Of a stretch of DNA of 33,195 nt, positions 2,596 through 20,400 are shown in pieces. The stretch spans positions 1-33,195 of the forward strand of contig NZ_JAQMTY010000266.1 of NCBI RefSeq assembly GCF_028330765.1, written 5' to 3'. The stretch is from Spirulina subsalsa CS-330. Its GTDB lineage: Bacteria; Cyanobacteriota; Cyanobacteriia; Cyanobacteriales; Spirulinaceae. A program made the translations under genes and the position numbers. Within the stretch, counting starts at the first letter, position 1; the number at the start of each line of letters is the position of its first letter. Below the pieces are notes generated by a model. That model was given only the letters and a program-made list of their open reading frames with translations, did no database searches and was not told where the DNA came from.

Positions 2596-5238
2596 TTAAT
2601 CTGGGAGGGTGGCGAAATGTTCAAGCAAGAGGCGGTGAATGAAAATATAGCCGCCGCCCACGTTTTGCAGCAAGATCAAACGGGTGGCGGTGTTGAGAAA
2701 CTGGGCGAGGTTCCAGGGGAGGGAGCCGTCGAAATACAGCAGGATGCGCAGGGTGAAATGTTGGATGCAGGCCACGCCGGGGGGGGAGGCACAGCCGAAA
2801 ATAAAGCCGACCAACATCCCAACAGTGAGGGGCAGGCCGATCATTCCGGCCAGAATGCTGAGGGTGGATACCCCGATCAGGGAAAAAAAGGCGGTGTAGC
2901 GGAGCGATCGCTGAATCCCTTGGTTCGGGACGACGCTGGTGGGAATGCTGCCCCCGGTGAGACCCTGAAGGAGGATGAAAATAATGCCCGTGCCAAAGCC
3001 GCAGAGGCCGTAGAGTAGAGTTTCCGTAACCGTGCGTGTCCAGCCCAACGTCCAGCCAAAAAGCACATAGGCCAAGATTGAGATGATCATCACAAGGCTG
3101 CCAATCCGCAGGCCGGGCCAGAGGTTGGCGCGGGCTTTGCGGCTTGACCAGCGGATCATTTCCACGGGTTCGATGGGGGGAAATTGGGCCCCAAAGGTAA
3201 TGCCGAGGACAAGACCGCCACCGATGCCGAGAATTAAGCCCGCTTTCAGGCCAGCGATGGGGTTAATCAGAATGCCGAGGTTAACCCCCGCCACAACACC
3301 CGCGATCAGGCTGCCAATAAACCCGACCCCCAAGGCATAGCACCGACGCAGGCGGGGTGTGTCGCACCAGGTGGGCTGCATTTGTTCGATTAAGAAAATG
3401 GTTTGGGAGTCCCGTTGGAGTTGTTGGGCAAGGCGGCGGAGGCTACGGCGGAGGCGGTGGGGGGAATAGGTACGATCGCGATCGCGCTGGAGCATCCGAT
3501 CGATGTAGGTGTTGAACAGGTGGGTGCGGAGGCTTTGGGCATCGGTGTAGGTGAGTTGTTCGGCGGGCAAATCGCGATAGGCGAGGGTGATGATACTGAG
3601 CATCAGGGGCGATCGCGCCAACTCCTGGAGGGCGGCATCATGGTCGAGGGCGGTGCGGATTGCGGTGAGGCCAGACCCGTGGGAACTAAGATACTGCTGG
3701 ATTTGGTCGAGGTTGAGAGGTTGAATCCGGACGGCGGCTTGGAGACGAAGCCGGGAGGTGAGGGCGAGATAGTCCGCGATCCGGCTACAGATTACCAGTT
3801 CAGTTTGCCCATAGTCCGTGAGGAATTGGTTAATCGCCTCCACACAGGGCGATCGCCACTGCGATCGCACCTCATCCAACCCATCGAGCAGGAGTAACAA
3901 TTGCTGACCCTCCACCCAATCTTGACCGATCAACGGCGCAACCTGATACTGCTGCTGCAATTCCTGCACAATCCAGGCCGCTAAGGGTTGCGCCTCCCGT
4001 TTACCCTGGCCGCGCCAGGATGACAGGTTAAACACCACGGGAATCAGAGCCTGGGCATCCTGTTCTGCTTGGTGAATCAGATCCCGCGCTAGTTCGAGCA
4101 ATGTGGTGGTTTTCCCCGATCCCGGTTCGCCCAAAATTAGGAGCGATCGCCCCGCCCCCAACTGCTGAAACCGCCGCCCCACCGTTTCCCCCGCTGTTAA
4201 CGGCTGTTCCTGCTCACCGGCTTGCCACACCACCCCCCAGGGCCGTTCGAGGACATCACTGCGATCGCTCAATCCCAATTCCAGCATCACCCGCCCATGG
4301 AGCGATCGCTCTAACACCCCTTTCACCCAAGCATTCCGCACTTTATTGAGCAGAATTTGACGGTGGCGATCGCTGGACTTGGCCGGGGCGGGGGCTTTGG
4401 GGGTGAGGGTGGTGGGAGCCAAGGCGGGGGCGGGTTGGGTGGGGAGATTGGCGGCGGCAGCGTGGGGGGTGAAGGTGGCAAGGGCAGCGGCAGCATCGGG
4501 GTAGCGATCGCGCCAATTGCGGTGCAGGCAGCGGGTCAAGAGCGCCGCCAGATCGGAACTGAGGGAGAGCGATCGCACCCGATCCAAGGGGTCAGGGGTG
4601 GGCCATTGTTCCGGACGCTGACCCGTCAAGGCATAGAGCGCAATAACCCCCAAGGCATAGAGATCGCTAGCGGGTTGGGGATACCCGGACAACTGTTCGA
4701 GGGGCATATAGCCCGGCGTACCGATGGCGATCGTCGGGGCGGACTGGGGCGCGATCGTTTTCACCGCCCCAAAATCAATCAACAGAATCACCCCATCCTC
4801 CCGTCGCCGCATCAAATTACTCGGCTTCACATCCCGATGAATCACCCCCTGTTGATGAACAAAAGCCAACACCGTCAAGCTATCCCGCAACAGCATCCGC
4901 ACCGCAGGCTCGGCCCAAGGTTTCCCCAATTCCGCATCGAGGGTGTGGCCCTCAATGTAGTCCTGCACGAGATAGGCTTGGCCTTCGCTCTCAAAATGGG
5001 CCAGCAGGCGGGGAATTTGGGGATGATTGCCCAACTGATAGAGAATGTGGGCTTCTTGGTCAAAAAGACGGAGGGCATCGCGTTGATGGTCTGGATCTTG
5101 GGAGGGTAAGAGCAGTTGCTTAACGACGCAGATCGGCTGGCCGGGCAGATGGCGATCGCGAGCAAGATAGGTTTGCCCAAACCCGCCCTGGCTCAAGGGT
5201 TCAAGGAGTTCATAACGGTGGGCTAACAGGGTGCTCAT
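2596..5238 (-). CDS. Ser/Thr protein kinase fused to NACHT NTPase and C-terminal membrane domain
   Basis: This 880-residue multidomain protein starts with a Hanks-type kinase: glycine loop QGGFGQTY (17-24), Lys40, catalytic loop HRDVKPSN (134-141), DFG (155-157), then GTPGYMPLEQ in place of an APE-type segment. A Pro/Ala-rich linker (about 260-290) leads to a NACHT module with P-loop GEPGSGKTT (370-378) and Walker B LLLLLDGLDE (447-456). From about residue 634 several Gly-rich hydrophobic segments suggest at least five membrane passes. The protein ends with a VGGGYIFIHRLLLEHFATL-type motif that I recall from cyanobacterial NACHT-membrane proteins. All kinase and NTPase key residues are intact. 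It resembles STAND-type signalling proteins that couple nucleotide switching to an effector, here a kinase. A coiled-coil membrane protein follows downstream. Confidence 0.9.
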   Translation of the reverse strand: MSTLLAHRYELLEPLSQGGFGQTYLARDRHLPGQPICVVKQLLLPSQDPDHQRDALRLFDQEAHILYQLGNHPQIPRLLAHFESEGQAYLVQDYIEGHTLDAELGKPWAEPAVRMLLRDSLTVLAFVHQQGVIHRDVKPSNLMRRREDGVILLIDFGAVKTIAPQSAPTIAIGTPGYMPLEQLSGYPQPASDLYALGVIALYALTGQRPEQWPTPDPLDRVRSLSLSSDLAALLTRCLHRNWRDRYPDAAAALATFTPHAAAANLPTQPAPALAPTTLTPKAPAPAKSSDRHRQILLNKVRNAWVKGVLERSLHGRVMLELGLSDRSDVLERPWGVVWQAGEQEQPLTAGETVGRRFQQLGAGRSLLILGEPGSGKTTTLLELARDLIHQAEQDAQALIPVVFNLSSWRGQGKREAQPLAAWIVQELQQQYQVAPLIGQDWVEGQQLLLLLDGLDEVRSQWRSPCVEAINQFLTDYGQTELVICSRIADYLALTSRLRLQAAVRIQPLNLDQIQQYLSSHGSGLTAIRTALDHDAALQELARSPLMLSIITLAYRDLPAEQLTYTDAQSLRTHLFNTYIDRMLQRDRDRTYSPHRLRRSLRRLAQQLQRDSQTIFLIEQMQPTWCDTPRLRRCYALGVGFIGSLIAGVVAGVNLGILINPIAGLKAGLILGIGGGLVLGITFGAQFPPIEPVEMIRWSSRKARANLWPGLRIGSLVMIISILAYVLFGWTLGWTRTVTETLLYGLCGFGTGIIFILLQGLTGGSIPTSVVPNQGIQRSLRYTAFFSLIGVSTLSILAGMIGLPLTVGMLVGFIFGCASPPGVACIQHFTLRILLYFDGSLPWNLAQFLNTATRLILLQNVGGGYIFIHRLLLEHFATLPD

Positions 5239-5617: not shown

Positions 5618-6520
5618 ATGTTGAATCCCTTGAAAACCACTGCCACGCTGCTCACCACCCTCGTCGCTTGCGCGTTGCCGTGGGCGATCGCACCCACCGC
5701 CATCGCAGAAGTCACCACCCGATCCACAACCCCATCGAGTAGCGCGACCGATGCCGAGACTGAATCCTACTACGACAAAGCCCGCGAAGAATTGCCCCAC
5801 AACCTCTATGTGCTCTATCGCATTGTGGAGCGGATTGCGCGGGCCAATGATCTAGATAATCACCCGTGGCGCGTCGTGGTGGCCGATGATTCGTTAATTA
5901 ACGCCTATGCCACAGAAGTGAATTTGGTGATCGTTCACTACGGGTTGTTGGATCAAATGGCGGGGGATGTGTCGGCATTGGCCTGCGTCGTGGGTCACGA
6001 AATGGCGCACCATACCGAGCAGCACATCGCGATTCGCACCTCCCGCAGCGTTGACTGGCAAGAGGAATTTCGTAACTCCCAATCCCGTGAATACCAAGAA
6101 CGGATTTCTAATCTCGCTCGCACCCATGAAGCGGAAGCCGATCGCATCGGCTATGAATATTCCGTAACGGCGGGGTTTGATGCGTCGGGCTGTCTGCGGG
6201 GTTTGGAAATGTTGTCACGCTTACCGGGAACGCTGCGGGATAGCGATACCCATCCGGCCGTGCCGCGTCGCATTGAAGCAATCCAAGAATTAATGCAGGA
6301 AAAACCGCCCGAAGTCTTGCGAGCAAGCGGCCATCTGGGCTTAACCACCTCACAACCCCTCTCCTACGAAATGGTGGAAGATCAAAGCTGGCTGCGCATT
6401 AATTCCGAACGGGGCGGCAGTTTTGTCGAAGATTGGAACCGGATTTTCCCCGATGATGTGATCGACCCCAATTTTGAACCGGCGGAGGAAGACGAAGCTA
6501 CCACAGAGGAAGCAGAATAA
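5618..6520 (+). CDS. Exported M48-family zinc metalloprotease
   Basis: The 300-residue protein is read from ATG 5618; an upstream TTG at 5594 would add eight residues before the signal peptide and looks less likely. Residues 1-29 form a Sec signal peptide ending in TAIAE. The zinc motif HEMAH lies at 127-131 inside CVVGHEMAHHTEQH, and the downstream EADRIGYEY supplies the third zinc ligand. These are the hallmarks of M48 (BepA/LoiP/Oma1-like) peptidases, which degrade or check envelope proteins. The C-terminus is a short acidic tail rich in Glu. It faces the second, larger M48 gene at 6965-8752 in convergent orientation. Catalytic residues are intact; substrate unknown. Confidence 0.88.
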   Translation: MLNPLKTTATLLTTLVACALPWAIAPTAIAEVTTRSTTPSSSATDAETESYYDKAREELPHNLYVLYRIVERIARANDLDNHPWRVVVADDSLINAYATEVNLVIVHYGLLDQMAGDVSALACVVGHEMAHHTEQHIAIRTSRSVDWQEEFRNSQSREYQERISNLARTHEAEADRIGYEYSVTAGFDASGCLRGLEMLSRLPGTLRDSDTHPAVPRRIEAIQELMQEKPPEVLRASGHLGLTTSQPLSYEMVEDQSWLRINSERGGSFVEDWNRIFPDDVIDPNFEPAEEDEATTEEAE

Positions 6521-6568
6521 GCGATCGCATTCATACAATAGCCTGGACAGGCGGAACACCCCTAGTGG

Positions 6569-6681
6569 CGTGACACAGCCAAAATTATACTTTATTGTAG
6601 GGTGGTTTAGGTGGCTAAAATCCCCGCCATCACTACAATCCAGCAATCCGCCGTAACCCACCGATTAACGTGTGTCGTGAC
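6569..6681 (-). mobile_element. MITE-like 113-bp repeat, copy A
   Basis: The reverse complement aligns without gaps over 113 bases to 17219-17331, with 91 identical positions by my count (about 80%). Near the ends lie imperfect inverted repeats (GACACAGC against GACACACG), and inside are GGTGGTTTAGG and GTAACCCACC arms that can pair. CCCTAG occurs directly on both sides (6560-6565 and 6681-6686), which may be a target duplication. There is no coding capacity. Confidence 0.7.
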
Positions 6682-6845
6682 CCTAGGTCAACGCTAAAAG
6701 TTAGGGTGTATTCAGTCTCGCTGTCTGGAAACTCAAAACTGAATACATCCCCCATCTCGCTGACATCCTCAGTTCGGAGCGCAAAACCCAAACGAGTGGA
6801 GTCAAGACCCAGTTGCCCTGGCTGCGATTCCACTCAGCTTTTGTT

Positions 6846-6939
6846 ACAGCTTGTTCAGAAATCCATCACGTACAGATTCAGAAGCCCCTCGCCTCGTGGA
6901 AGAGGGGTTTAGGGTGAGGGTAATGAGTGAACAAGCTGT
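6846..6939. mobile_element. Small palindromic element with 12-bp terminal inverted repeats
   Basis: Perfect inverted repeats ACAGCTTGTTCA (6846-6857) and TGAACAAGCTGT (6928-6939) bound a 94-bp unit. Its interior (6894-6920) is a degenerate inverted copy of the CCCTCACCC...GAGGGG hairpin core found at 24453-24527 and 27892-27966. TTTTGTT occurs at 6839-6845 and again at 6942-6948, a possible but offset target duplication. It lies just beyond the stop of the M48-TPR gene. Confidence 0.55.
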
Positions 6940-6964
6940 ATTTTTGTTCAATTCGGCTTTGGGA

Positions 6965-8752
6965 TCAGGTCAACTTCTGGCGTATTTGATCATGCACTTC
7001 AACACCTTCGAGAGCAAAGCGATTGTAGCCATTACGTTGAATCATGGATTCTAGATAGTCAATGCGTTCGGTAGGAGCAGGATGGGTGGAGAGATATTCT
7101 GGAATTTGATCGTCCTCTTCCACCTCTTGGGCATAGGTTTCGAGCTTCACCATAAAGTTACGCAAACCATCTGCCGCTAGCCCAGATGTGGCGAGAATTC
7201 GTGTGCCCAGAACATCAGCTTGGCGTTCTTGTTGGCGCTCAAAATGCGTACTGAGCAGGGCATTCGCAAAATCTCCAAATGGAACTTCTTTCGTGAGTTG
7301 ACCCAGGATGTTAGCTCGAAAGAAACTCTGAACACTATGAGATAGTGCAGAATGTGCCATTTCGTGGGCAATCAGTCCAGCTAATTCGGCTTGGGAACTT
7401 GCTGCTAAAATAGCTCCAACATTGACGAATATTTTGCCGCCAGGTAAAGCAGTGGCATTCATACTTCTGTCATTGACGACGTAAAATTCATAGTCAAAAT
7501 CTCGTCCAATCCGTTGGGACATTTGCAGGCCGAGTTGAGTGATGTAATCAGTGATCTCTGGATCATCCACAAGGGATAAATCTTGACTGTAATATTGGGC
7601 AATTTGACCGCCAAAATCTGCTTCACTTCCCAGCATCATCCGGACAATATTGAGAGTTTCAAAGGCGGAATCTAAATCAAGGTTGCCATTGTCCCGCAGA
7701 AAAAAATTGATGCCAATATTTAAAATGCCGCCTAGGATACTGCGCTTACGATACTTACGTTTAAACCGACCAAACTCATCAGCAGCGAGTTCTTCAAACT
7801 CTGGAGCTTGAGGATGATCGAGATGCACCATCGCAAATTCACGAGCAGCAATTGAGGCTTCAAGATGGTCATTGGCTTCTGAGAGGGCTTCGACTTGAGC
7901 CTTGATCACGTAGGGTTCGTCCGGATAGAAGGCAGCCAGTTGTTCAAGGAGGGCGAGGGCTTCTTCTTCTTCGTCTTCTGCTTGGAGCAGTTGAGCTAAC
8001 TGCACTTGTCCCTGAAGAAAGGCTGGCTCTGCGGCACTTAAGTCACGCAAGGCAGCGATCGCACCAGCTTCGTCCTTCTCTTCCAGTGCCAGAGTTGCCG
8101 TTTCCCAAAGAGCTAGATTCTCCGGAGCGAGATCCATCACTTCATAGATGGGGTCTGGAATGTTAGAAAAGGAGGTCTCTGCAAAATCCGGTTTGACCTC
8201 TTTATATAACGCAGTGGCTGTGTCAAAATCACCAACATAATAAGCCTCATCCGCAGCCAGAAACACGGGCCGAGTTTCGGGACGAATCCTGGGAATTCTT
8301 ACCTGTATTGCCGCTCCATCAACAGTATTGTTTGGCTCATCAGAAACTTGCTCACCAGGACTGTCTGGGTCATCAGATATTTCATCAGCAGCACTGTCTG
8401 GGTCATCAGAAACTTGCTCATCAGGACTGTCTGGGTCATCAGATATTTCATCAGCAGCACTGTCTGGGTCATCAGAAACTTGCTCATCAGGACTGTCTTG
8501 TTCATCAGATATTTCATCAGCAGTACTGTCCTGTTCATCAGAAACTTGCTCATCAGTACTGTCCTGTGGCTCAGTACGATTTTGGGCAAGCTCAGAGGGT
8601 AGCATTGGGTCAGACAGAGAAGTTAGATCTGAGAGTAGAACCTGAGCAGAAGACGGGCGACGCTGCCACCCCGGCATCCCGATGGTTAAACACAAGGTTG
8701 CCAAGGCCACAATGACCCAACGGAGTAGACGATGAGATCGGACGTTAAACAT
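6965..8752 (-). CDS. Exported M48 metalloprotease with TPR-like region and acidic tandem repeats
   Basis: The 595-residue protein has an N-terminal signal sequence (hydrophobic 12-26, possible cleavage after SSA). Residues 62-148 are nearly four copies of a 22-residue acidic repeat of the form DxDSPDEQVSD plus DxDSAADEISD. A helical TPR-like region (about 160-320) contains ALEEKDEAGAIAALRDL and related stretches. The peptidase domain follows, with HEMAH at 463-467 and downstream ERQADVLGTRIL giving the third ligand. The layout recalls BepA-like M48-TPR envelope proteases, but with domain order reversed (helices before the protease) and an extra acidic stalk. It lies 99 nt after the FecR-like gene on the same strand. 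HIP1 sites are rare in it compared with neighbours. Confidence 0.88.
   Translation of the reverse strand: MFNVRSHRLLRWVIVALATLCLTIGMPGWQRRPSSAQVLLSDLTSLSDPMLPSELAQNRTEPQDSTDEQVSDEQDSTADEISDEQDSPDEQVSDDPDSAADEISDDPDSPDEQVSDDPDSAADEISDDPDSPGEQVSDEPNNTVDGAAIQVRIPRIRPETRPVFLAADEAYYVGDFDTATALYKEVKPDFAETSFSNIPDPIYEVMDLAPENLALWETATLALEEKDEAGAIAALRDLSAAEPAFLQGQVQLAQLLQAEDEEEEALALLEQLAAFYPDEPYVIKAQVEALSEANDHLEASIAAREFAMVHLDHPQAPEFEELAADEFGRFKRKYRKRSILGGILNIGINFFLRDNGNLDLDSAFETLNIVRMMLGSEADFGGQIAQYYSQDLSLVDDPEITDYITQLGLQMSQRIGRDFDYEFYVVNDRSMNATALPGGKIFVNVGAILAASSQAELAGLIAHEMAHSALSHSVQSFFRANILGQLTKEVPFGDFANALLSTHFERQQERQADVLGTRILATSGLAADGLRNFMVKLETYAQEVEEDDQIPEYLSTHPAPTERIDYLESMIQRNGYNRFALEGVEVHDQIRQKLT
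8309..8569 (-). repeat. 66-bp in-frame tandem repeat encoding acidic 22-residue units
   Basis: There are about 3.9 direct copies of a 66-bp unit, itself built of two related 33-bp halves. The inner copies are almost identical at the DNA level, with single-base changes such as GACTGTC against CACTGTC. The unit length is a multiple of three, so copy changes keep the frame. The product is a Ser/Asp/Glu-rich linker between the signal peptide and the TPR region. Confidence 0.9.
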
Positions 8753-8851
8753 GATTTTTCAGGTGATAGACGAATGGAGAGACAACGTTAAGACAACATT
8801 TGGCAGGGTCAGAAAATCTGATGACTAGGAATCGCTTCAGGATTGCCGCAT

Positions 8852-10399
8852 TTATCGAGGGCAACGCAGTTTATAGTTCCACCGGGTTCCAAATTCTTCC
8901 ACTGCACCGGTCGCCCGCACGGTCACTCGCCCAGATTGGCCAGAAAACGGAATCCGAAGCTGACCGCTGCCTGAAATAAAACCAGTATCGAGAATTTCTT
9001 CGCCTTCATAGAACACTTGCAAGCGATCGGGAATGTCATACATGTTGTATTCAATCCGAATTTCCCCTGCATTGGTGCTCATTTGTAGCTCATTCTCTCG
9101 TACACCTCTGCCACCGCTATCTTGTTCTTGGTTGCAGAAGCCGATTGGCTCTTGACCGTTACCGAGTAGATTGGCCTCGTAGCAGGTTTCAATGGTCAAG
9201 TTGGCATTGGGAACAGCGGAAAAGGCACAGAGCACTTCAAGATCAACGGATTTGAGGGTGGCGGCACGATCAAAACGTTCTGTTCGGCCGCCCTCGCTGG
9301 TGTGTATATATCGCTCCCCTTTGCTGACGACTTGACCCTGGGGCAGATTGACTGCTTCTACCGTGATGGCTCCTTCAATGACATCGGCTTGGATGCCGTC
9401 TGGGGTATCTCGAACTTGGACGAGAATTTGCTGATCGCCAGCGGCGAGCACGGCATCATCACTGGCGGGTTTCACGACTAAGCTTGACGGTTTCAATACC
9501 CGTCCTACGCAGGCTTGAGGTGCTTGGGATGGAATCAGATCGATGGCTGCGGCGGCGATCGTCTCGCCCGTTCCTGTTACGACGACCGTATCTTGATCGG
9601 GGCAGGTGAGGGTAGCGGCCAGATCTTCATCGCTACTCCACCAAACTCCCATTGTCATCGGTTGACAGGTGGTATCTCCAGAGGCTTCACATTGAGTGAG
9701 GGCTGGGGGACAGGGATCAGTGCGATCGCTCCCCGTGGCAAACCCCATCGCCCCACTCTCCCCCGCTGTCATGCAGTAGTAGATCCGGCGAGGTGGGGCC
9801 TGGGCCTGGAGGGTTTTAGAGCCAAATTGCGCAGCAATGCGCTGCCACTCAACGTCTAGTTGTGAACTGTTGGGGTGTCGTCCGCGCTGGACTTCTACCC
9901 CTTGATCACAAGCACGTTCTCGGTTATCTCGATCAAGAGCAACATGGCCAATAAACATATCCCCACTGAGGTTCGTACAGGGATAGTAATAGATGGTTTT
10001 ATTGGTATGGGGATTCGTTTTAATATAGCTAGCCAGATCATCCCCACTTTCATCAAGAAAGCGGAGTATAACCCGAGCGAGACTGTTTTCTTCAACGACC
10101 AGTAAAGAGTCTCGATGGGACTGCAATCGTGTTTCGCCGGGGTTAATAATGCCTTCCTGAATGCCGCGCACTCGTAAGTCGGCACTGTTGCCAGCGAGCA
10201 TTTGGTCGATGGCCGCTTGGTGGGGGATTGCACTCCAGGCCTGGGGCGGTTGAGGAATGATCCCGACAATGCTAAACAATGCACTACTGATGACAGTTTT
10301 GGAGATGCGGACGATACGTTGGTAATTCCGGGGTAAGTCGGCTATCTTCGACGGGATGATAGCCTGCACAATGTTACAAAACATGAATTTTCTGATCAA
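8852..10399 (-). CDS. Secreted FecR-like protein with C-terminal beta domain
   Basis: The 515-residue protein has a long basic N-terminus (about 30 residues), then a hydrophobic stretch and a likely cleavage near QAWSA (about 56). The first part (RVRGIQEGIINPGETRLQSHRDSLLVVEENSLARVIL) and a later VIEGAITVEAVNLPQGQVVSKGERY fit the pattern of a FecR-type domain interrupted by an insert of about 230 residues with several Cys pairs. The last 75 residues, from about 440 (IRIEYNMYDIPDRLQVFYEGEEI, ending WNYKLRC), form a Cys-terminated beta-rich module. No sigma or anti-sigma gene lies nearby, so classical FecR signalling is doubtful. It is the first gene of the leftward unit, divergent from the LRR gene, and precedes the M48-TPR gene. 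Family assignment is tentative. Confidence 0.7.
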   Translation of the reverse strand: MIRKFMFCNIVQAIIPSKIADLPRNYQRIVRISKTVISSALFSIVGIIPQPPQAWSAIPHQAAIDQMLAGNSADLRVRGIQEGIINPGETRLQSHRDSLLVVEENSLARVILRFLDESGDDLASYIKTNPHTNKTIYYYPCTNLSGDMFIGHVALDRDNRERACDQGVEVQRGRHPNSSQLDVEWQRIAAQFGSKTLQAQAPPRRIYYCMTAGESGAMGFATGSDRTDPCPPALTQCEASGDTTCQPMTMGVWWSSDEDLAATLTCPDQDTVVVTGTGETIAAAAIDLIPSQAPQACVGRVLKPSSLVVKPASDDAVLAAGDQQILVQVRDTPDGIQADVIEGAITVEAVNLPQGQVVSKGERYIHTSEGGRTERFDRAATLKSVDLEVLCAFSAVPNANLTIETCYEANLLGNGQEPIGFCNQEQDSGGRGVRENELQMSTNAGEIRIEYNMYDIPDRLQVFYEGEEILDTGFISGSGQLRIPFSGQSGRVTVRATGAVEEFGTRWNYKLRCPR

Positions 10400-10501
10400 T
10401 TAATCATAAACAACTGAAGCATTGAGCATCTAAGGGTCATATTTTGGGTGAACAACCTCCAAATTAGTCGTAAAAAATGGGAAAGCTGGGGTCTGCTGGA
10501 G

Positions 10502-10534
10502 TTCTGGTGAGCAACACGCTGAAGCTCACCAGAA
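10502..10534. promoter_or_regulatory. 11-bp inverted repeat in divergent promoter
   Basis: The arms TTCTGGTGAGC (10502-10512) and GCTCACCAGAA (10524-10534) are perfectly complementary around an 11-nt loop. No T-run follows on either strand, so an operator or RNA leader hairpin is more likely than a terminator. Confidence 0.5.
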
Positions 10535-10564
10535 TCCCAGATCTCTAGTCTTTAAGTTGCTGAA

Positions 10565-10588
10565 ATACTGTATTGCTGAATACAGTAT
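10565..10588. promoter_or_regulatory. Perfect 10-bp palindrome, candidate operator
   Basis: The arms ATACTGTATT (10565-10574) and AATACAGTAT (10579-10588) are perfect complements around GCTG. The centre is 86 bases upstream of the LRR gene start. The nine-base word CTGAATACA from the right arm recurs at 6739-6747 and, inverted, at 6707-6715, at the other end of the leftward unit. Confidence 0.5.
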
Positions 10589-10662
10589 AGTTCGTGAGCT
10601 TAGGAGACTGATAAATTGATATTGAAAGTCTATCCGATTTTAACACTTTTGTCTAAAGTAGA

Positions 10663-11811
10663 ATGATGAGAAATCAATACCGTCAGGATAGTTTATGGCA
10701 ATGGGGTCGTGTGAGTCTGGGATTATTTTTTCTCAGTGTCTTGAACAGTCCAAATGTTCTCGCTCAAGAGTCTAGGTTTCGGGAAATCTGCCAAGCACGC
10801 GATCGCACCACACCAGCCCAAGCTCACACCATTGAGGTGTTGTTACGAGAAGCTAAAACCGATGACTGTGGCGCAGCGGCAGAGTTTTTAGGACAACAAA
10901 CCCACTTGAGCCTCAATCATCAAGAGCTTCAAGATTTAAGCGCGATCGCTACCCTAGCGCAGCTCACTGAACTCTATTTAGGTAATAATGATATTGCCGA
11001 TCTGAGTCCCCTCCAAGAACTGGTCAACTTGCAGGTTTTAGCCCTCGACAATAATCAAATTCAGCACCTTGCTCCTCTTACCAGGTTAAATCAACTACAA
11101 AAACTGTATCTCAGCCGCAATCAAATTATTGATGTTACACCGTTGGGACAATTGACTCGTTTGAGCCATTTAGAAATTGCTCATAATCAAGTTCAAGCGG
11201 CTGATGCCTTCGCGAACTTACACCAGCTTGAGCATCTGAATATTTCCGAAAATCAACTGATCTCTCTAGATTTTGTGAGTCGTTGGCAAAAACTTGCCAT
11301 TTTTCAGGCGAATCAAAATCAAATCACGACCCTGATCCCCTTAGAGAACTTGACGAGTTTACGTCATCTAGAACTGATCGGGAATCAAATTCAGGAAGTA
11401 CATCCGTTGTTAGGCTTGGAGAATCTGATCACGCTCAGAATTGAGAATAATCTCATCGCAGAACCCGCACAACTCAGGCTAGAACAAACGGTTAATGTCC
11501 GAAAACTTCAGGAGCAATATCACTGTGTTAATTGTAATTTAGCAGGCTTAGATTTAAGCAATCTTGATTTAATTGGAGTCTCGTTGATTAATGCAAATTT
11601 ATCAGGGGCTAATCTGTCCAATACAGATTTGGTGGGAGCTAATTTGGAACATGCTAATTTGCGAAATGCAGACCTACGCGGTGCAGATTTAGAAGGCGTG
11701 CTGTTAATCAATGCTGACTTGACGGAAAGCATTCAAGACAATACAAATTTTTGCAATGCGATATTTTCCCTTTCATTATCGGGTCAGCAGCATTTGGGGG
11801 ACTGTGAATGA
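10663..11811 (+). CDS. Exported leucine-rich-repeat protein with pentapeptide-repeat tail
   Basis: The 382-residue protein has a Sec signal peptide (about 1-35, cleavage near VLAQE) and a short N-cap with two Cys residues. About eight 22-residue SDS22/internalin-type leucine-rich repeats follow (about 80-270; consensus LxxLxxLxLxxNxIxDLxPLxx), then pentapeptide repeats (about 290-350; A[N/D]LxGA pattern such as SGANLSNTDLVGANLEHANL). There is no catalytic motif, so it is probably a binding scaffold. The stop overlaps the next start in ATGA (11808-11811), implying translational coupling with the CHAT gene. Its N-cap and repeats are paralogous to those of that protein. The gene looks more AT-rich than its downstream neighbour. 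Confidence 0.88.
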   Translation: MMRNQYRQDSLWQWGRVSLGLFFLSVLNSPNVLAQESRFREICQARDRTTPAQAHTIEVLLREAKTDDCGAAAEFLGQQTHLSLNHQELQDLSAIATLAQLTELYLGNNDIADLSPLQELVNLQVLALDNNQIQHLAPLTRLNQLQKLYLSRNQIIDVTPLGQLTRLSHLEIAHNQVQAADAFANLHQLEHLNISENQLISLDFVSRWQKLAIFQANQNQITTLIPLENLTSLRHLELIGNQIQEVHPLLGLENLITLRIENNLIAEPAQLRLEQTVNVRKLQEQYHCVNCNLAGLDLSNLDLIGVSLINANLSGANLSNTDLVGANLEHANLRNADLRGADLEGVLLINADLTESIQDNTNFCNAIFSLSLSGQQHLGDCE

Positions 11812-14800
11812 GTAGCAAACAACATTGGTGCATGATGGAGGCGATCGCCACTGGTGCGATCGTCCTGATGGGCTGCCCTGATCCCGGCGTTGCCCAAGGG
11901 GAACCGCTTGGGTTTCAGGACTATTGTGAGCGTCAAGCGGGGGTCTCTGTTGATGAGCAGCGCACGATTATGGCCTTGCTGGCGATCGCTGACACCCAGA
12001 CTTGCACCGAGGCAGCCGCCACCCTAGCCACCCTGGCCCAACTGAATTTAGGGGGGCAAGAACTCACAGATTTGAGACCCTTGGCGAGCCTGACACAGCT
12101 TAAAACCCTTTATCTGCATGACAATCAGATTACGGATTTACGACCCTTAGCGACCCTGACTAATCTGGAAGTGTTGTTACTGGATCAAAACCAAATCCAC
12201 GATCTACGCCCCTTAGCTGCCTTAACCCAGCTTCGGAAATTATCAGTTATTAGCAATCAGATTCGCGATGTTTCGCCGTTAGCGAGTCTGGGAAATTTAA
12301 AGGAATTGTCACTGTTTGATAATGAGATTCGACAAATTTCCCCCTTGGCTACTCTGTCGGCCCTCACGCATTTAAGTGTCAGTGATAATCGTCTGCGCAC
12401 CGCAGATCCGATCGCAGCACTACCCAATCTCATGGCAGTGGATTTAAGCCAGAATGCCATTGAGCAAGTGGATGCGTTGCGGTCTCTCACTCAACTCACC
12501 TCTCTAGATCTGCGCAACAACCCGATCACGTTCAACGTTTGTCCTGTCAAACCGGCCACGATCTGTTTATTTACCGATGTTGCGGCTGATCTCTACCGCC
12601 GAGGGGAACAGGAGGCCCAACAAGGCGAATTTCAAACTGCTTTAGCAACCTTCCAGCAAGCATTGCAGCGATACGAGGCGCAGCAGGATTTCCTGCGGGC
12701 GAGTGATGCTTTGGCACAAATCGGGCAACAGTATGATGCTTTGGGACAATATGCCAATGCTTTGGGGGTTTATGAACAGGCTTTAGCTCTGCGCCAAGAC
12801 TTGAGCGATCGCCAAGGAGAGGGCGAGTCGGCGGCTGATTTGGGAATCACGGCCCTGCGCTTAGGACAGATTGAGTCAGCGATCGCTCAACTCACCCTCG
12901 CCCAAGACATTGCCCAAACTTTAGCCGTGCAAGAACGGAGTTGGCTGCGACCGGGCCCCCGCCAAGGCGTGATTCTCAGTCATCTGGCTTTGGCCTACGG
13001 GCTTCAGACGGATCATGTTCAATCGCTCCGAGCCGCGAAACAAGCCCTCGCGGTCTATCGCTACGGCCGCGATCGCGCCGGCGAAATCCGGGCCCTCAAT
13101 CAAGTGGGGAATGCCTACCGAGCCTTGGGGGAACTGGACAAAGCCCAACATTACCTAGATCGGGCCCTGGAACGCTCCCAACGGCTGTCAGATTTGCCCG
13201 GAGTCGCCCAAACCTTTAAAAGTCTGGGGGATTTAGCCTTCGCTCGCCACAACCCAGAACTAGCGATCGCGCATTATCAGCAAGCTCGGCAACTACACCG
13301 CCAAAGCCGCGATCGGGCCGGAGAAGGCGAGGTCTTAACCGCCCTCGGAACAGTATGGTTGAGCCAAGCCCAATATTCCCAAGCCGAGACCGCCCTCACT
13401 ACGGCGGTACAACGCTGGGAAGCACTCCGTCCGGGCCTTGAAGACAGCAATAAAATCTCCCTGGCCGATACCCAAGCCCAAACCTATCGCCTCCTGCAAC
13501 AAACCTTGATTGCCCAAGGTCAAACCGAAGCCGCCTTAGCCATATCCGAACGAGGACGGGCGCGGGCCTTTGTGGAACTCTTAGCCCATCGCCTCAAATT
13601 ACGAGGACAACGCCAACCCCTCAACTCCTTTACCGCTCCCACCGTTGCCGAAATACGTCAGCTTGCCCAAACCGCACAGGTCACGTTTGTGGAATATACC
13701 TTTGTGGGGGAGCAACTCTATATCTGGGTGGTGCAGCCCACGGGCGAGATTCATCATCGCACGGTTGATCTCATCAGCCCCAATCATGATGGCCTGAGCA
13801 CCCTTGCCCTCGAACCCAACCAGGCTGCCCCCTTTTACCGAGGGCAACCTGCCGCAACGGAAATGGCGGCAGGGGTTGCGGCCCTGCGCACAGGCATTGT
13901 CACGGAGTTTACCGAACCGCCTCCAGCTCCGCAAAACCACCAAACGGTTCAGGAACAACAACTCCGTCAACTCTATAATGTCCTGATTGAACCGATCGCA
14001 CCGCTGTTACCGCGTGATCCGAACGCGCCTGTGGTCATCATTCCCCAAAACAGTCTCTTTCTCGTGCCCTTTGCAGCCCTGCGTGATGCCCAAGGCGACG
14101 ATCTCATTGACCATCACACCTTGATGGTGTCCCCATCGATTCAGGTGTTTCAGCTTACCCAACAGCCCTCACTGCGGCCACCCTCTGGCGGCGAGATTGA
14201 GAGGGCCTTGATTGTCGGCAACCCCATTATGCCGTCCGTCTGGGAACCCACCGGAAACGGCCAGTTTCTGCCGGTTACCCTCCCACCCCTGGCAGGTTCG
14301 GAAACCGAAGCGGCAGCCATTGCCCAGTTACTCCAAAAATCCGCCTTAATTGGTGCTCAAGCCACGGAAGCACGGGTGAAACAGGAATTAGCCGATGCAC
14401 AGATTATTCACTTTGCTACCCATGGTCTTTTGCAATATGGTGATCCCCAAGCCGATCGCCAACCGGACGTTCCCGGTGCGATCGCCCTCACCCCTGGGCA
14501 AAATGAAGATGGCTTACTCACAACCGCCGAGTTGTTCTCCTTTGACCTAGTGGCGGAACTCGCTGTTTTAAGTGCCTGCGATACGGGTCGGGGTAACATT
14601 ACCAGCGACGGTGTAGTGGGTCTTTCCCGGGCGTTGATGACAGCGGGGGTCAGCAGTGTGCTGGTGTCGCTCTGGGCCATTCCTGACCGCGAAACTGCAA
14701 CACTCATGCAAGAATTCTATCGCCAGCTTACCAAGGGCCAGTCTAAGGCCCAGGCCCTACGGCAGGCGATGCTCATGGCGCGATCGCAGTCTTCCAATCC

Positions 14801-14900
14801 TGACCCCAGCCAATGGGCTGCCTTTGTCCTGATGGGAGATGGATCAACCCTGGGCAGTAGAGAGATATCCCCTCAATTGTCCAGCCACACTGGGCCCTAA
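11808..14900 (+). CDS. Exported LRR-TPR-CHAT protease
   Basis: The 1030-residue protein begins with a hydrophobic export signal: either a lipobox LMGC (about 20-23) or a Sec site near GVAQG. An N-cap with Cys residues and LRRs (about 75-245) resembles the upstream protein. TPRs follow (about 260-570, for example GEIRALNQVGNAYRALGELDKAQHYLDRAL). The C-terminal half is a CHAT domain (about 690-1015) with catalytic-type His872 in HFATHG and Cys924 in LSACDTG, followed by GVVGLSRALMTAGVSSVLVSLW. CHAT domains belong to the caspase/separase clan; TPR-CHAT proteases act in type III-E CRISPR and other sensing systems. An exported CHAT would act outside the cytoplasm. Both catalytic residues are present. 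Confidence 0.92.
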   Translation: MSSKQHWCMMEAIATGAIVLMGCPDPGVAQGEPLGFQDYCERQAGVSVDEQRTIMALLAIADTQTCTEAAATLATLAQLNLGGQELTDLRPLASLTQLKTLYLHDNQITDLRPLATLTNLEVLLLDQNQIHDLRPLAALTQLRKLSVISNQIRDVSPLASLGNLKELSLFDNEIRQISPLATLSALTHLSVSDNRLRTADPIAALPNLMAVDLSQNAIEQVDALRSLTQLTSLDLRNNPITFNVCPVKPATICLFTDVAADLYRRGEQEAQQGEFQTALATFQQALQRYEAQQDFLRASDALAQIGQQYDALGQYANALGVYEQALALRQDLSDRQGEGESAADLGITALRLGQIESAIAQLTLAQDIAQTLAVQERSWLRPGPRQGVILSHLALAYGLQTDHVQSLRAAKQALAVYRYGRDRAGEIRALNQVGNAYRALGELDKAQHYLDRALERSQRLSDLPGVAQTFKSLGDLAFARHNPELAIAHYQQARQLHRQSRDRAGEGEVLTALGTVWLSQAQYSQAETALTTAVQRWEALRPGLEDSNKISLADTQAQTYRLLQQTLIAQGQTEAALAISERGRARAFVELLAHRLKLRGQRQPLNSFTAPTVAEIRQLAQTAQVTFVEYTFVGEQLYIWVVQPTGEIHHRTVDLISPNHDGLSTLALEPNQAAPFYRGQPAATEMAAGVAALRTGIVTEFTEPPPAPQNHQTVQEQQLRQLYNVLIEPIAPLLPRDPNAPVVIIPQNSLFLVPFAALRDAQGDDLIDHHTLMVSPSIQVFQLTQQPSLRPPSGGEIERALIVGNPIMPSVWEPTGNGQFLPVTLPPLAGSETEAAAIAQLLQKSALIGAQATEARVKQELADAQIIHFATHGLLQYGDPQADRQPDVPGAIALTPGQNEDGLLTTAELFSFDLVAELAVLSACDTGRGNITSDGVVGLSRALMTAGVSSVLVSLWAIPDRETATLMQEFYRQLTKGQSKAQALRQAMLMARSQSSNPDPSQWAAFVLMGDGSTLGSREISPQLSSHTGP

Positions 14901-14996
14901 ACTCAAGCCCTGATCCCCATGGATTACGCTTGAAACTATCGAGCCTGGGTTTGTTGGCTTATCATTCATACTCTGCCCCATCATGTTGTCCGCATC

Positions 14997-17180
14997 ATGC
15001 TGAACCGTCGCCACTTTTTGCAATTTGCCGGAGCTACCCTTGCCGCTGGGGCTGGGTTGCATCGCCACCTTCTCGCCCAACTGACAAGCCACGCCCAGGT
15101 TCTCAGCCAGCGAACGCCCCGTAAGCTGGCCTTGTTGGTGGGCATTAATGACTACCAAAATGATTTGAATCCGCTCTATGGATGTCTCACCGATGTGGAG
15201 CTACAATATCAACTCTTGGTGCATCGCTACGGATTTTTACCCCAAGATATTGTGCGCCTGACCGATACAACGGCCCAAAAACCGACCCGAATCAATATCC
15301 TCACTGCGTTTGAAGAGCATCTGATCAAATCAGCCCAGCCCGGTGATGTGGTGGTGTTTCACTATTCTGGCCATGGCTCACAGTTACAAGACCCGCAACC
15401 GCTGACCGCTGATGGGTTGAATGGGACTATTGTTCCTGCTGAGGGTCAAAATGACATTATGGGCCGCACGTTGTTTCTACTCCTGTCGGCTCTCCCCACG
15501 TCTCAAGTCACAACCCTACTGGATAGTTGCTTTTCGGGTGGGGGACTGCGGGGGACAGTGCAGTTTCGGTCGATTAACTCCCGTTTGGCACGGGGATCAG
15601 AGCTGCCCTCTGCCCTGGAACTGGATTATCAAGAACAATGGCGATCGCGCCTAGGATGGAGTCCCACGGATTTTCAGGCACGTCGTCAACGCGGGATTGC
15701 TCAGGGTATTGCGATCGGTTCGGCTCGGCGCGATCAACTGGCGGCAGATGCGCGTTTTGAGGGGTTTTTTGCGGGGGCGTTGACCTATTTGCTCACGCGC
15801 TACCTGTGGCAACTGCCCCTGAATCAGCCTATCGAACGGGTCTTTGTGGATTTGCAGCGGAGCACCAAGGATGTGGCTAATGTGAATGGGGTCGCTCAGG
15901 AGCCAGTCTTTGAAGCCGCGATCGCGGGCGATCGCCAAGAACTACCCTATTTTTTGAGCTTGGCCCGTCCTGCGGCTGAAGCCGTTGTCCTCAAGCAAGA
16001 AGGGGCACAGGTTTACTTTTGGCTGGGAGGAGTCTCAGCCCAGAGTTTGCGAAATTTTACCAGCGGAGCCATCTTAACGACGATCGCGAGGGAGAATCAG
16101 CCGGCTGTGGACATTGAACAACTCCAGCGCGAGGGGCTGCGGGGTTTAGGGCGCATTATCAGTGGTGCGGGCACTGTGCAACCGGGTGATTTACTGCGGG
16201 AGAAGATCCGAGGTGTGCCCCCAGACCTGAATCTACGGGTGGGACTGGATCAATCTCTCGGTGCGGAGCGTGCCCAATGGCAAGCAGCCCTCCAAACGCT
16301 CACGGGTCTGACCACTGTTCCCGTTGAACCGGGGCGATCGCTCGACATCATCCTGGGGCGATTGACTGTTGACCCTGCACCAACATCGCGCCCAGAACCG
16401 CCATCTGGGAACCGTTGGGGCTTATTGACCCCAAGTTTGACACCTATTGCTGCCAGCTTCGGGCCCGCCGCAGAACCCCTCAGTACCGCGATCGCACGGT
16501 TAACCGTCAAGCTCAAAACACTCCTCGCCACCCGTCTGCTGAAATCCTTGGTGAATGAACAGGCCTCAACCCTCAATGTCACCACCCAACTTTACCCCGT
16601 TGGACAAGCTCCCCCGCCACAACCGATGCAGGGGAGCCGTGCAGCCCAAGAAACTGGGCAATTTTCACGCCTTCCCACGGTCGCAGCGGTGCAATTTGCC
16701 CCCGAAACGACCCTGCAACTCAGGGTCGAAAACCAAGAACAGCGCGATTTATACCTCGCTGTCCTGATCATTATGGGTAATGGGGATCTCGCTGTTTTGT
16801 TTCCCTATTGGGATGCCCCCGAAGATGCCGCCCGCATTGCCGCTGGTCAGACCATCACCGTACCGCGTCCGGATGATCGGTTTCGCTTCACGGTTAAAGG
16901 CCCGGCAGGATTTGCAGAATTATTAATCTTGGCGAGTGTTACGCCGCTGCGAGATGCCCTGCGGGGGTTGAATGCGATCGCTACCCAGCGAGGTACTCGC
17001 TCCGGGAATCCCACCGTTTTGCAAGGTGATGATCCTCTGACCATGATGAATGCGCTGTTGGGCGACATGGATCGTGCGACTCGCAGTTCTCCGATTAAAG
17101 TACGTCCCCGCGTCCAAGCCTTAGATGTCAATAAATTTGCAGTATTTTCCACCACAATTGAAGTCGTTGAGGCTGATTAA
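14997..17180 (+). CDS. Tat-exported caspase-like (C14) protease with DUF4384-type C-terminus
   Basis: The 727-residue protein starts with a twin-arginine signal (NRRHFLQF followed by an Ala-rich core). The caspase-like domain begins KLALLVGINDYQ (about 42) and has the catalytic pair His126 (HYSGHGSQ) and Cys178 (LDSCFSGGG). It thus resembles bacterial metacaspases/orthocaspases, which cut after basic residues. After a linker, about residues 575-655 match DUF4384 (LQLRVENQEQRDLYLAVLI...LFPYW...FRFTVKGPAGFAELLILAS), a module often paired with bacterial caspases. It lies 96 nt after the CHAT gene on the same strand and is probably cotranscribed. Tat export means it folds, probably with a cofactor such as calcium, before crossing the membrane. 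Confidence 0.92.
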   Translation: MLNRRHFLQFAGATLAAGAGLHRHLLAQLTSHAQVLSQRTPRKLALLVGINDYQNDLNPLYGCLTDVELQYQLLVHRYGFLPQDIVRLTDTTAQKPTRINILTAFEEHLIKSAQPGDVVVFHYSGHGSQLQDPQPLTADGLNGTIVPAEGQNDIMGRTLFLLLSALPTSQVTTLLDSCFSGGGLRGTVQFRSINSRLARGSELPSALELDYQEQWRSRLGWSPTDFQARRQRGIAQGIAIGSARRDQLAADARFEGFFAGALTYLLTRYLWQLPLNQPIERVFVDLQRSTKDVANVNGVAQEPVFEAAIAGDRQELPYFLSLARPAAEAVVLKQEGAQVYFWLGGVSAQSLRNFTSGAILTTIARENQPAVDIEQLQREGLRGLGRIISGAGTVQPGDLLREKIRGVPPDLNLRVGLDQSLGAERAQWQAALQTLTGLTTVPVEPGRSLDIILGRLTVDPAPTSRPEPPSGNRWGLLTPSLTPIAASFGPAAEPLSTAIARLTVKLKTLLATRLLKSLVNEQASTLNVTTQLYPVGQAPPPQPMQGSRAAQETGQFSRLPTVAAVQFAPETTLQLRVENQEQRDLYLAVLIIMGNGDLAVLFPYWDAPEDAARIAAGQTITVPRPDDRFRFTVKGPAGFAELLILASVTPLRDALRGLNAIATQRGTRSGNPTVLQGDDPLTMMNALLGDMDRATRSSPIKVRPRVQALDVNKFAVFSTTIEVVEAD

Positions 17181-17218
17181 TACAGACATCGCTAAAATGC
17201 TCGATTCTAGGCCGTAGT

Positions 17219-17331
17219 GTCACGGCACACGCTAATTAGTGGGTTACATCGGATCGCTGAATTGCAGTGATAACAGGAGTTTAAGCCGCCTAACCCACCC
17301 CACAATAAAATATTATTTTAGCTGTGTCATG
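17219..17331 (+). mobile_element. MITE-like 113-bp repeat, copy B
   Basis: This is the gap-free partner of the inverted copy at 6569-6681 (91/113 identical by my count). GCCGTAG flanks it directly (17211-17217 and 17332-17338), consistent with a 7-bp target duplication. Internal GTGGGTTA and TAACCCAC arms can pair. It lies immediately downstream of the caspase-like gene and might end its transcript. Confidence 0.7.
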
Positions 17332-17418
17332 GCCGTAGCGGGCAAGATGCCCGTACTACGGCTCGGAACATACATATAGCACTAGCCAGAGCGGTTAGGA
17401 CATTCAAAGGTTCTGGAA

Positions 17419-17489: not shown

Positions 17490-20400
17490 TCAGAGCCAAC
17501 CCTTTTTCGCTTTGGCGATTTTGGGGGGGTGGACGGGTTCCACGTCGTAGAATGTGCCGAGGCCCTCGTATTCGGCGAGATAGTCGCTTTCGTAGAGGGT
17601 GCGATCGCTGCCGTGGGGTCGGGAAATTTTGACCTGGTGGGGACGGGTCGCGCCGCTTTCGTCAACCAGGAAATGGTCGGTGAGTTGTTTGGACTGTTCG
17701 CCGTTGCTGAGTTCGAGGGCGAGGTCTTTGAGGACGATCAGGTAGGTTTTGTGATCAAGAGGCGCGGCGGGGTAGCGCTGGGTGTGGATCGCGATCGCGC
17801 CCTGTTCACTGCCGAGAAAGCCGCCGATTTCGTGGGGGCGATCGTCTACGGTCTGTTCCCCTGCGAGTAAGCTCAAGGTGGTGAGAATCCCTTCCCGGCG
17901 TTGCCCTTCCATGCGGTCAAAATAATGGGTCGTGTGACAGGTGTGGGTGAATTCTTTAAGGACGGTTTGGGCGTGGTGGGTGACCTGCGATCGCACCTCA
18001 TCATCAATCGCCATCGCCTGAGCATCGACCCGCAACAGGGCATCCACAAAGGGCTGATTCCACTGTTCGATCCTCTGCGCCAATTCCTTCTTTTTCAGCC
18101 CCCAAAAATAGGAGATGAGATGGCTGACAATGATCACCTGAAAGGGATAGAGGACGATACTATCGGCGGGGTAGGTGAAAATATAGTCCGGGGCGTAGTC
18201 GGGGATGGCGGCGAGGCGATCGCGATCGCGCTCGTGGGCAATGAAAAACGAGGTCGCCACGCGGGGGCCAATTTCCGCCGCCGACTTAATCGCCCGCGCA
18301 TTGAAAAACGGCCAAGAGGGTGGCGGCGCATTGTGGCCGAGAATCGACCCCAAGGTGTAGCGGGTGCGGCGTTTCATATGGGCATATTTGCCATGCTGGA
18401 ACTGGAAGAAATGCCACCCCGCGAACATTTCTTGAATCATTTCCGCCGCCTTGTGGGCCTGCTCTTCGGGCACGCCGTCGAGATAGCCCGTATAGACAAA
18501 ATCGAAATTGCCGCCGACGAGTTCATGGCTCATGGTTTCAATTTCGCGGATCAGGGTGCGATCGCCCACAATCTGCTTCGCCACCTCCGGCAACAGCGCC
18601 AACTCCGCATAAATTTTCTGGGCATAGGTAGCCGAAATATCACCCCGCACCTCCCCCAGGTATGTATGCAATGCCAACTGCCACTGCAACGATGCCATCG
18701 CCGCAAAGGTCGATCCCACACATTCCTCTTCTGGTAGGTTGGTAATCCCCGCCCCCGCCGCCGGTTGAATCACCGCATCCAACCCCCGGCCAATATTCCC
18801 CAAGGGACTCGCCTCAATATTCGTCACCACATAGATCCAAGGCGTTTTCGTCGCGATAAACGCCTGGAGGTGTTGGGGGAGATCCGTGCGTTGGGTGTCG
18901 GGTTTGACGAGGGCTTTTAATTCCGTGAGCCGCGCCTGAGCCACAATCACCTCAGCGAGGTTCGGGTCGCGCCGCTCAATTTCCGCCTCAATGCGGTTAA
19001 TCACCGCCGGTAAACTGGCGAGTTCATGGGTGAGTTTAATCGTGTCGGACGTGCCCCCGGAATTAGAGTTCGCCAAAAAGAGCGTGTCACGCCCCACCGA
19101 CGGCGGAATCGTATCCGACCCGGTGAACCCATCCAAATTCACCACCGGCAGCGTATTTAAGCCCAATTTCCGCGACAGATTCCCCGCGATCATATTGATC
19201 AAAAAGGACGTGCCGGCCGCTCCGGTGACGATCTGGGTCAGGTTTTGAATCCGTTGGCGGCGAATGGCTTCATCTTCTGTGCCCATCACCAGGCCAATCC
19301 CATCGGCTCCGGTGCGCAGTTTCACCTGACCGTCTTGGCTGATGGTGAAAAGTTTCTCGCTGTTTTTTTGGAGGGCGAGGGGTTGAATGACGATGATTTC
19401 TTCGCCGTATTTGTTGTAGGGGCAGGGGATGGGCTGATTATCCAGATCGCGATATTGGATGTTAAACACCTTGAGGGGGGCGAGGCGTTCTTGGCGAATA
19501 TCGGCATGGATGTAGGCATCGGCTTGTTTTTGCTTTTCGATGCTGATCAGGGGAATGTCCTGGCCGCGATAGATATTGAACATTCGCACCTGACCGTCGG
19601 CGGTGACTTCGACAATTTCACCCGGCAACACGTCGTAGATGGGGGCAACGCCTTCGGTGATGTGGGCGGTGGCGCGGATGTCGTTGAGGAAGGTGACCTC
19701 TTGAATGGAGGCTTCGGCGAGTTCGGTGCGGCCACTGTCGAGACTGTGGGGGTTGAGCAAAACCATTTGCTCTTTGAGGGCGTTTTCTTCGGAAGCGGAA
19801 AGGAAGGCGACGCGGTTGTAATTGCTGATGTCGTAGGATTTGGGGAGGTAGAAGATCAGTTCGCCCCCTTCTTCGCCGCCCCGTTCTGTGCCGCCCCGGA
19901 GCATGGTGTAAGTGCCGCCGCCGAGCATCCCGTAGCTGGGCTGACCGAGGGGGGTGAAGGATTGGAAGGTGAATTTGTTTTTCGGGTCGGAATATTCGAG
20001 GATGCGGGCGAGGAGGGCAGCGGCGATCGTGACTTGTTCGGCTCCGGCCGCTCCCATGATCGCCGCCAGTTCGAGGAGTTGGGAGATTTTTTCGCTGGCT
20101 TCGGAGAGTTCGTCATCACGGAGAAAGCCCTGTTGGGTGAATTGGGCGATCGCTTGTCCGTTGCGATGGTGAAAGGCGATGGTTTTACCGCTGAGTTTGA
20201 CCTGAAGCGTTTTTTGGGCAAATTCAATGCCGAGATCGTAGGCTCCGATTTTGCCGTCGCTGGTGACGGTGGCGCTGTCGCAATCGAGATAGTCCGGGTC
20301 AATGTAGGCGAGGCGGTGCAAGGCTCCGATCAGTTGATCCGCCCGCAAATGTTCATAAAGAAAGCGTTTCAGGGCCGGTTCAACGCAGGAGTCGGAATTG

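Follow-up and report, generated by a model that had tools for sequence, protein, structure and literature searches.

Discussion of CHAT and caspase-type enzymes mostly treats them as immune or death effectors of the cytoplasm. Orthocaspases cleave after basic residues. CHAT-containing protease relays occur in systems of clustered regularly interspaced short palindromic repeats (CRISPR), where TPR-CHAT of Craspase (TPR, tetratricopeptide repeat) is the CHAT peptidase of a triggered proteolytic pathway and the SAVED-CHAT of type III systems has a caspase partner; a CHAT-to-caspase relay was reportedly described by Steens et al. 2024. The window analysed here, the whole 33,195-nucleotide stretch from Spirulina subsalsa CS-330 (contig C259 of a 4.70-Mb genome), carries a gene for an LRR-TPR-CHAT protein (LRR, leucine-rich repeat) followed by one for an orthocaspase with a twin-arginine translocation (Tat) signal, both within an accessory island. 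Judged from the sequences, the side-by-side pairing of such genes is recurrent among cyanobacteria: a CHAT gene stands within 1 kb of the His-Cys Tat-caspase in 36 of 55 loci, in 34 of them on the same strand (window included). Our preferred reading, with a probability of about 0.4, is that the island encodes an extracytoplasmic protease cassette in which the CHAT protein would act as initiator and the Tat-caspase as executioner of a relay, whose order, substrates and activity we infer. The features concerned are the following.

5618..6520, plus strand: small M48 metallopeptidase, a backbone gene adjoining the island (95% identical orthologue beside the gene for a 1193-residue protein in the congener G002)
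6521..17185, no strand: accessory island, about 10.7 kb (site empty in the colinear congener G002 by blastn and protein colinearity)
6965..8752, minus strand: TPR and M48 metallopeptidase with HEMAH, signal peptide-like, accessory (Pfam M48 E 1.7e-23)
8852..10384, minus strand: FecR-like protein, signal peptide-like, family not recognised (alternative start at 10399, TTG)
10385..10662, no strand: divergent intergenic region of 278 bases splitting the two gene blocks (by coordinates; the same divergent layout in the genome G072)
10663..11811, plus strand: LRR and pentapeptide-repeat protein, N-terminus signal peptide-like (Pfam LRR_4 1.7e-31, Pentapeptide 8.8e-20)
11808..14900, plus strand: LRR-TPR-CHAT cysteine peptidase homologue, His872/Cys924 (Pfam CHAT 4.1e-70; N-terminus signal peptide- or lipobox-like)
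14997..17180, plus strand: Tat-signal orthocaspase with DUF4384, His126/Cys178 (Pfam Peptidase_C14 4.4e-20, DUF4384 1e-13)

The six reading frames listed by the initial annotation were found at its coordinates, and the catalytic residues it named in the CHAT protein and the caspase occupy exactly the positions given above. Pfam likewise bears out the LRR, TPR and pentapeptide repeats and the two M48 peptidases, both of which contain HEMAH (E 4e-19 for the small one). The CHAT protein qualifies as a CHAT peptidase (PF12770 with His and Cys) and the caspase, on sequence, as a true orthocaspase, with a Peptidase_C14 p20 domain over the cut-off and the dyad H126/C178; its TAT_signal match in Pfam is weak and under the cut-off (18.6 vs 22.7 bits), and the EACC1-type caspase profile NF047832 gives 34.4 bits vs a cut-off of 140. 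A sequence search of the PDB led from the caspase to metacaspases and from the CHAT domain, weakly, to one CHAT protein (8rot). The label 'FecR-like' was not confirmed, as that protein matched no Pfam family at E <= 0.1, the FecR family profile included; a structure model predicts a beta-sandwich in its C-terminal ~95 residues. The divergent gap claimed between five of the genes falls at 10385-10662, with FecR-like and then M48-TPR reading leftward, and LRR-pentapeptide, LRR-TPR-CHAT and Tat-caspase reading rightward. The first two rightward reading frames share 4 bases, and their products are 38% identical over 228 residues (BLAST) in their N-terminal and LRR parts; 96 bases separate the CHAT gene from the caspase gene. 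A promoter scan returned 11 sites vs 9.1 expected, no excess, and terminator-like sites in the same scan were fewer than in shuffled sequence.

Full-length relatives of the window caspase fall into two groups. In group A the dyad is His-Cys in 26 of 26 alignment rows covering the site and in 27 of 27 rows of a second listing; in group B, a single clade (support 100/100), it is Tyr-Ser in 13 and Tyr-Ala in 2 of 15, and we take this group to be the tyrosine-serine (YS) pseudo-orthocaspases of PMC6426788. The 55 His-Cys loci comprise the 25 best places of a caspase search (to E 1.1e-95; one, G050, with a broken gene), all 28 new places from a second search, the window itself and a 410-residue caspase in L163, while the 15 Tyr-Ser/Ala loci and 16 loci with short caspases (two cut or split) were hand-picked from a longer match list. 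A CHAT gene lies within 3 kb of the His-Cys Tat-caspase in 39 and within 5 kb in 41 of the 55 loci, compared with none of the 15 Tyr-Ser/Ala loci at 1, 3 or 5 kb; in one Tyr-Ser locus (L102) a CHAT gene stands just over 5 kb away. Many loci are akin (G051 and G073, for example) and were hence also counted by genus: in 20 of the 31 genera, one or more pairs are linked within 3 kb. Among the 16 loci with short His-Cys Tat-caspases, ~400 residues long, nine have a CHAT gene no more than 1 kb away, every one on the same strand. Both kinds of caspase coexist in five genomes, linked (43) and unlinked (25) copies are intermixed in the His-Cys clade of the caspase tree, and the genome of the window holds a second CHAT-caspase pair on contig C281. 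As far as sequence can tell, the association of CHAT with His-Cys Tat-caspases is real and non-random. Among the papers listed by the literature searches, which covered mainly open-access publications, none describes a CHAT-orthocaspase pairing.

Two loci (L071:14286-15605 and L073:4459-5778) encode a second CHAT protein of 439 residues in which the His and Cys motif patterns find no match, adjoining an intact CHAT near a His-Cys Tat-caspase; a role as an inactive regulator is possible.

Relatives of the FecR-like protein are rare, occurring at E <= 1e-20 in 5 of 386 genomes of the phylum, that of the window counted. Four loci came from genome contig records, one of them G072 again, for a total of eight distinct full-length loci; in one search the match was limited to the final ~100 residues in 8 of the 11 genomes that gave one, and these were left out of this count. 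A caspase or CHAT gene lies at most five genes from the FecR-like gene in all eight full-length loci, accompanied in 7/8 by M48-TPR, whereas neither was found near the tail-only matches in the two loci examined (L133 of G060 and L134 of G068). By Pfam the partner is a caspase-nSTAND1 protein in G428 and G016 and a CHAT-nSTAND1 protein in G167, and in one Amazonocrinis and two Nostoc records the partner is homologous to that of G428 (76-89% identity). G428 (by Pfam) and the Amazonocrinis and both Nostoc records (by BLAST) also have sigma-like and DUF1822 genes at the locus, a setting like the one reported for EACC2-caspases in PMC8195603. These loci are not independent: G428 is closely related to the Amazonocrinis record, and the two Nostoc records to each other. 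In the M48-TPR tree the window copy joins that of G072 (support 100/99), apart from the other copy of its own genome on contig C148. Linked M48-TPR copies form two lineages, one of the window and G072 and one of the others with a single unlinked G016 copy, and both lie outside the 13-row clade holding that other copy. In G072 the LRR-pentapeptide, LRR-TPR-CHAT, FecR-like and M48-TPR genes stand together. Together, FecR-like and M48-TPR appear to be an accessory that is separable from the rest. Within the M48-TPR gene, positions 8284-8596 form a 33-base tandem repeat, encoding 11-residue units that are acidic, rich in Ser/Asp/Glu and placed behind the signal peptide-like N-terminus.

The initial annotation had proposed a search for a conserved neighbourhood as its own refutation test. 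The result is divided: the complete five-gene set was seen in the window only, which is also the only one of the 55 His-Cys loci with FecR-like, M48-TPR or LRR-CHAT genes within ~9 kb, but its sub-units recur beyond chance. A chance neighbourhood of unrelated exported proteins, the alternative named in that annotation, would agree with the solitary full set and with the abundance of CHAT genes, since the 566 CHAT matches counted over 74 Mb (12 genomes) allow accidental proximity. Against it, that density predicts 2.1-3.5 pairs within 1 kb where 35 of 54 loci have one once the window is left out (kinship ignored), the Tyr-Ser/Ala loci have none, and the FecR-like gene is near a caspase or CHAT gene in every full-length locus. 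Chance is very unlikely overall; it is disfavoured for the CHAT-caspase pairing and stays live as regards what the LRR-pentapeptide and M48-TPR genes do.

All six proteins have N-termini in line with the export signals named by the initial annotation, the caspase with RRHFLQ in that region and the other five signal peptide-like by a simple hydrophobicity rule. The twin-arginine motif is present in all 26 group A rows that hold the N-terminus and in 15/15 group B rows. This home-made heuristic looks for a run of hydrophobic residues that follows a basic one close to the N-terminus. It scores as signal-like 40 of the 45 complete CHATs lying no more than 3 kb from a His-Cys caspase, compared with 171 of 549 other reading frames of at least 150 residues in the loci. 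The CHAT protein (Sec type) and the caspase (Tat type) are both predicted to be exported. A two-partner secretion (TPS) domain and a CHAT domain occur together in at least 25 reading frames of five genomes (matched by eye, on contig and frame length, among 85 TPS matches), and Pfam confirmed the fusion, with CHAT C-terminal, in three (L243:268-6486, L244:397-5019 and L237:555-3791). Independently of the signal rule, this domain architecture supports the export of some CHATs; in the open-access collection searched, no paper combines 'CHAT domain' with 'two-partner secretion'.

Under our preferred reading, the TPR/LRR part of the CHAT protein would recognise a ligand or damage, either periplasmic or at the cell surface, with the LRR-pentapeptide protein perhaps as its partner or inhibitor. 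The CHAT peptidase would then activate the Tat-delivered, already folded caspase, which in turn would cut envelope targets, and the FecR-like and M48-TPR proteins would be an exported pair of optional accessories that may sense or tune the response. Three points favour the order of CHAT first and caspase second: it is the CHAT protein that bears the recognition repeats, Tat export carries folded proteins, and CHAT relays are known from CRISPR systems. The initial annotation had imagined a similar envelope cascade, in which LRR/FecR modules would bind a ligand, CHAT would activate caspase and M48 would clear products. What recurs is the gene neighbourhood of CHAT with caspase, of FecR-like with caspase or CHAT, and of FecR-like with M48-TPR; the first M48 gene falls outside the unit. 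A broader form of the idea, a caspase-superfamily cascade run by cyanobacteria outside the cytoplasm as a counterpart of apoptotic and CRISPR relays, widespread as the two-gene unit and packaged in the window as an island with LRR and FecR-like sensors, is doubtful, though it deserves to be considered.

Several observations weigh against the relay. A CHAT gene is lacking within 3 kb in 16 of the 55 His-Cys loci, some of them at contig ends, and no caspase occurs in the 34 kb around the FecR-like/M48-TPR/LRR/CHAT block of G072. On the CHAT tree, the caspase-adjacent members cluster but in more than one clade (23 changes vs 33.6 when shuffled). The signal rule is a heuristic of our own, and by it signal-like N-termini are also found in 9 of 13 other CHATs of the loci and in 15 of 19 sampled elsewhere, the latter from 20 CHAT genes hand-picked among the strongest listed matches (19 complete; the signal of L247 doubtful by eye). 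The sampled CHATs without a caspase rule out the signal peptide as a mark of pairing; from these samples, the stronger CHATs in the genomes covered generally have one. Among the CHAT-tree rows listed, the TPS-type proteins belong to a clade of 10 rows, none of them caspase-adjacent, and they therefore back CHAT export in general and not that of this pair. The export signals also differ, and CHAT and caspase could end up apart, in the periplasm, the thylakoid lumen or at the surface.

The main rival is that the enzymes are parallel exported proteases without a relay, co-regulated for envelope quality control or scavenging and acting independently of each other on misfolded or foreign proteins. 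This is consistent with the two M48 proteins, which score best against the envelope proteases BepA and then LoiP, far under the cut-offs (BepA profile NF052400: 95 bits for M48-TPR and 49 for the small M48, vs 570), with the varying position of the CHAT genes, which flank the caspase on one side, the other or both, and with signal-bearing CHATs being common where no caspase is in reach. It accounts less well for a linkage seen with His-Cys caspases and absent from the 15 Tyr-Ser/Ala loci, and the LRR and TPR repeats would suggest recognition over bulk degradation. We consider it somewhat unlikely.

A third explanation concerns the wider surroundings of the Tat-caspases. By BLAST, homologues of CHAT-CHASE2 (13), DUF928 (11), DUF1822 (8) and a partner of ~460 residues (5) occur among the 55 His-Cys loci, with none in the 15 Tyr-Ser/Ala loci and none in the window; in Pfam checks of examples, two DUF928 matches were under the cut-off and the ~460-residue partner had no match. 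Loci L077, L079, L080, L152 and L159 are examples of these recurring neighbours. The pair might be the extracytoplasmic arm of transmembrane conflict or stress signalling, acting on a CHASE2 or DUF928 partner and inward to DUF1822 and other regulators. The occurrence of these homologues in the His-Cys loci and not in the sampled Tyr-Ser/Ala loci speaks for this, as does the description, in the available passages of PMC8195603, of an extracytoplasmic function (ECF) sigma factor and DUF1822 beside EACC2-caspases. Within ~9 kb the module is missing from the majority of the 55 loci, among them the window, and a sigma-like gene in Tat-caspase loci was not borne out by Pfam in the examples. We consider the explanation clearly unlikely.

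The Tat-caspase that keeps its dyad and the signal-bearing CHAT form a concrete two-gene unit with which to probe the role and location of orthocaspases in cyanobacteria; the pairing was not seen around the sampled paralogues that have lost the dyad, and it may point to signalling by proteases within the cell envelope. No description of the export theme was seen among the open-access papers listed by the searches, and the cascade is put forward as a hypothesis.

The extent of the island was defined by comparison with G002, of the same genus, which has colinear matches for 14 window genes outside the island (13 at 89-98% protein identity, one at 65%); there is no counterpart for two window genes (27.0-27.7 kb) or for several genes of G002. 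Nucleotide homology stops at 6492 and restarts at 17186, ~6521-17185 being missing from G002, where the small M48 gene directly adjoins the gene for the 1193-residue protein. Because G002 is colinear without this segment, the small M48 gene is assigned to the backbone and the other five genes to the accessory island. The single cluster of six genes first described is thereby reduced to a unit of five, and a six-gene unit is ruled out. In the congeners G001 and G003, the small backbone M48 adjoins a different CHAT gene (L214:5150-9471 and L215:10299-12790), which may indicate a looser tie between M48 and CHAT. The backbone flanking the island also includes a conserved Ser/Thr kinase-NACHT protein (2596-5238). 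Defence-system models gave only a TPR and a caspase model in the island, the kinase models matching this backbone gene. The 1193-residue protein (17490-21071) is 96% identical in G002 and matches no Pfam family at E <= 0.1, with weak GlmS-like NCBIfam matches far under the cut-off.

Base composition varies along the island: G+C is 0.43-0.50 in parts of its left and middle and 0.52-0.58 across most of the CHAT and caspase genes, with flanks at ~0.54-0.58. The FecR-like gene was not found in the three congeners searched, two of them only ~81-82% complete, and their caspase matches are short or distant forms only. Outside the genome, FecR-like, M48-TPR and CHAT all have their best matches in G072 (family f10), where these sit together alongside an LRR-pentapeptide gene, and the tree places the window caspase with genus g18, likewise of that family (support 98/87). 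We infer an acquisition from the quarter of family f10, the alternative being loss in the congeners; the island is probably accessory and horizontally acquired. A 127-nt repeat resembling a miniature inverted-repeat transposable element, with 56 matches in the genome, has inverted copies at 6559-6685 and 17215-17341 (79% complementary). The right copy lies outside the island edge, is not at the G002 site and is flanked by apparent 8-base target duplications; this copy looks like a separate insertion, and composite transposition by the pair is not put forward as the vehicle.

Compared with known systems, the island resembles Craspase and SAVED-CHAT in placing a CHAT protein in what would be a triggered proteolytic pathway, and differs in that those pathways are CRISPR-triggered. 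No SAVED or Cas domain is among the Pfam matches of the island proteins, and the Cas7-11 partner of the Craspase TPR-CHAT (Csx29) is absent from the five proteins of the island. The action of SAVED-CHAT in type III CRISPR is described in the available passages of PMC11417357. HetF of Anabaena (PMC8406250, available passages) is a membrane-located cyanobacterial CHAT-TPR protein; it is, however, a divisome protein with a transmembrane segment, and those passages mention no caspase partner. Among caspases, the YS pseudo-orthocaspases, as presented in the accessible parts of PMC6426788, share with the island caspase a Tat-type N-terminus followed by a C14 p20 domain, but they form a separate, well supported clade with Tyr-Ser/Ala in place of His-Cys and, in 15/15 loci, no CHAT gene within 5 kb. 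The true cyanobacterial orthocaspases of PMC8283722 are alike in the HC dyad, the C14 domain and, in some, DUF4384; the available portion of that survey contains none of 'signal peptide', 'twin' and 'periplasm', and regards forms that lack transmembrane helices as probably cytosolic. Neither 'CHAT' nor 'signal peptide' occurs in the available text of PMC7159879. The caspase-STAND modules with ECF sigma and DUF1822, as far as described in the passages of PMC8195603, are related through the FecR-like/M48-TPR genes, which also adjoin similar modules in G428 and three Nostoc-type records; in those modules the caspase or CHAT is fused to nSTAND1, whereas in the island the two are separate genes with export signals of their own.

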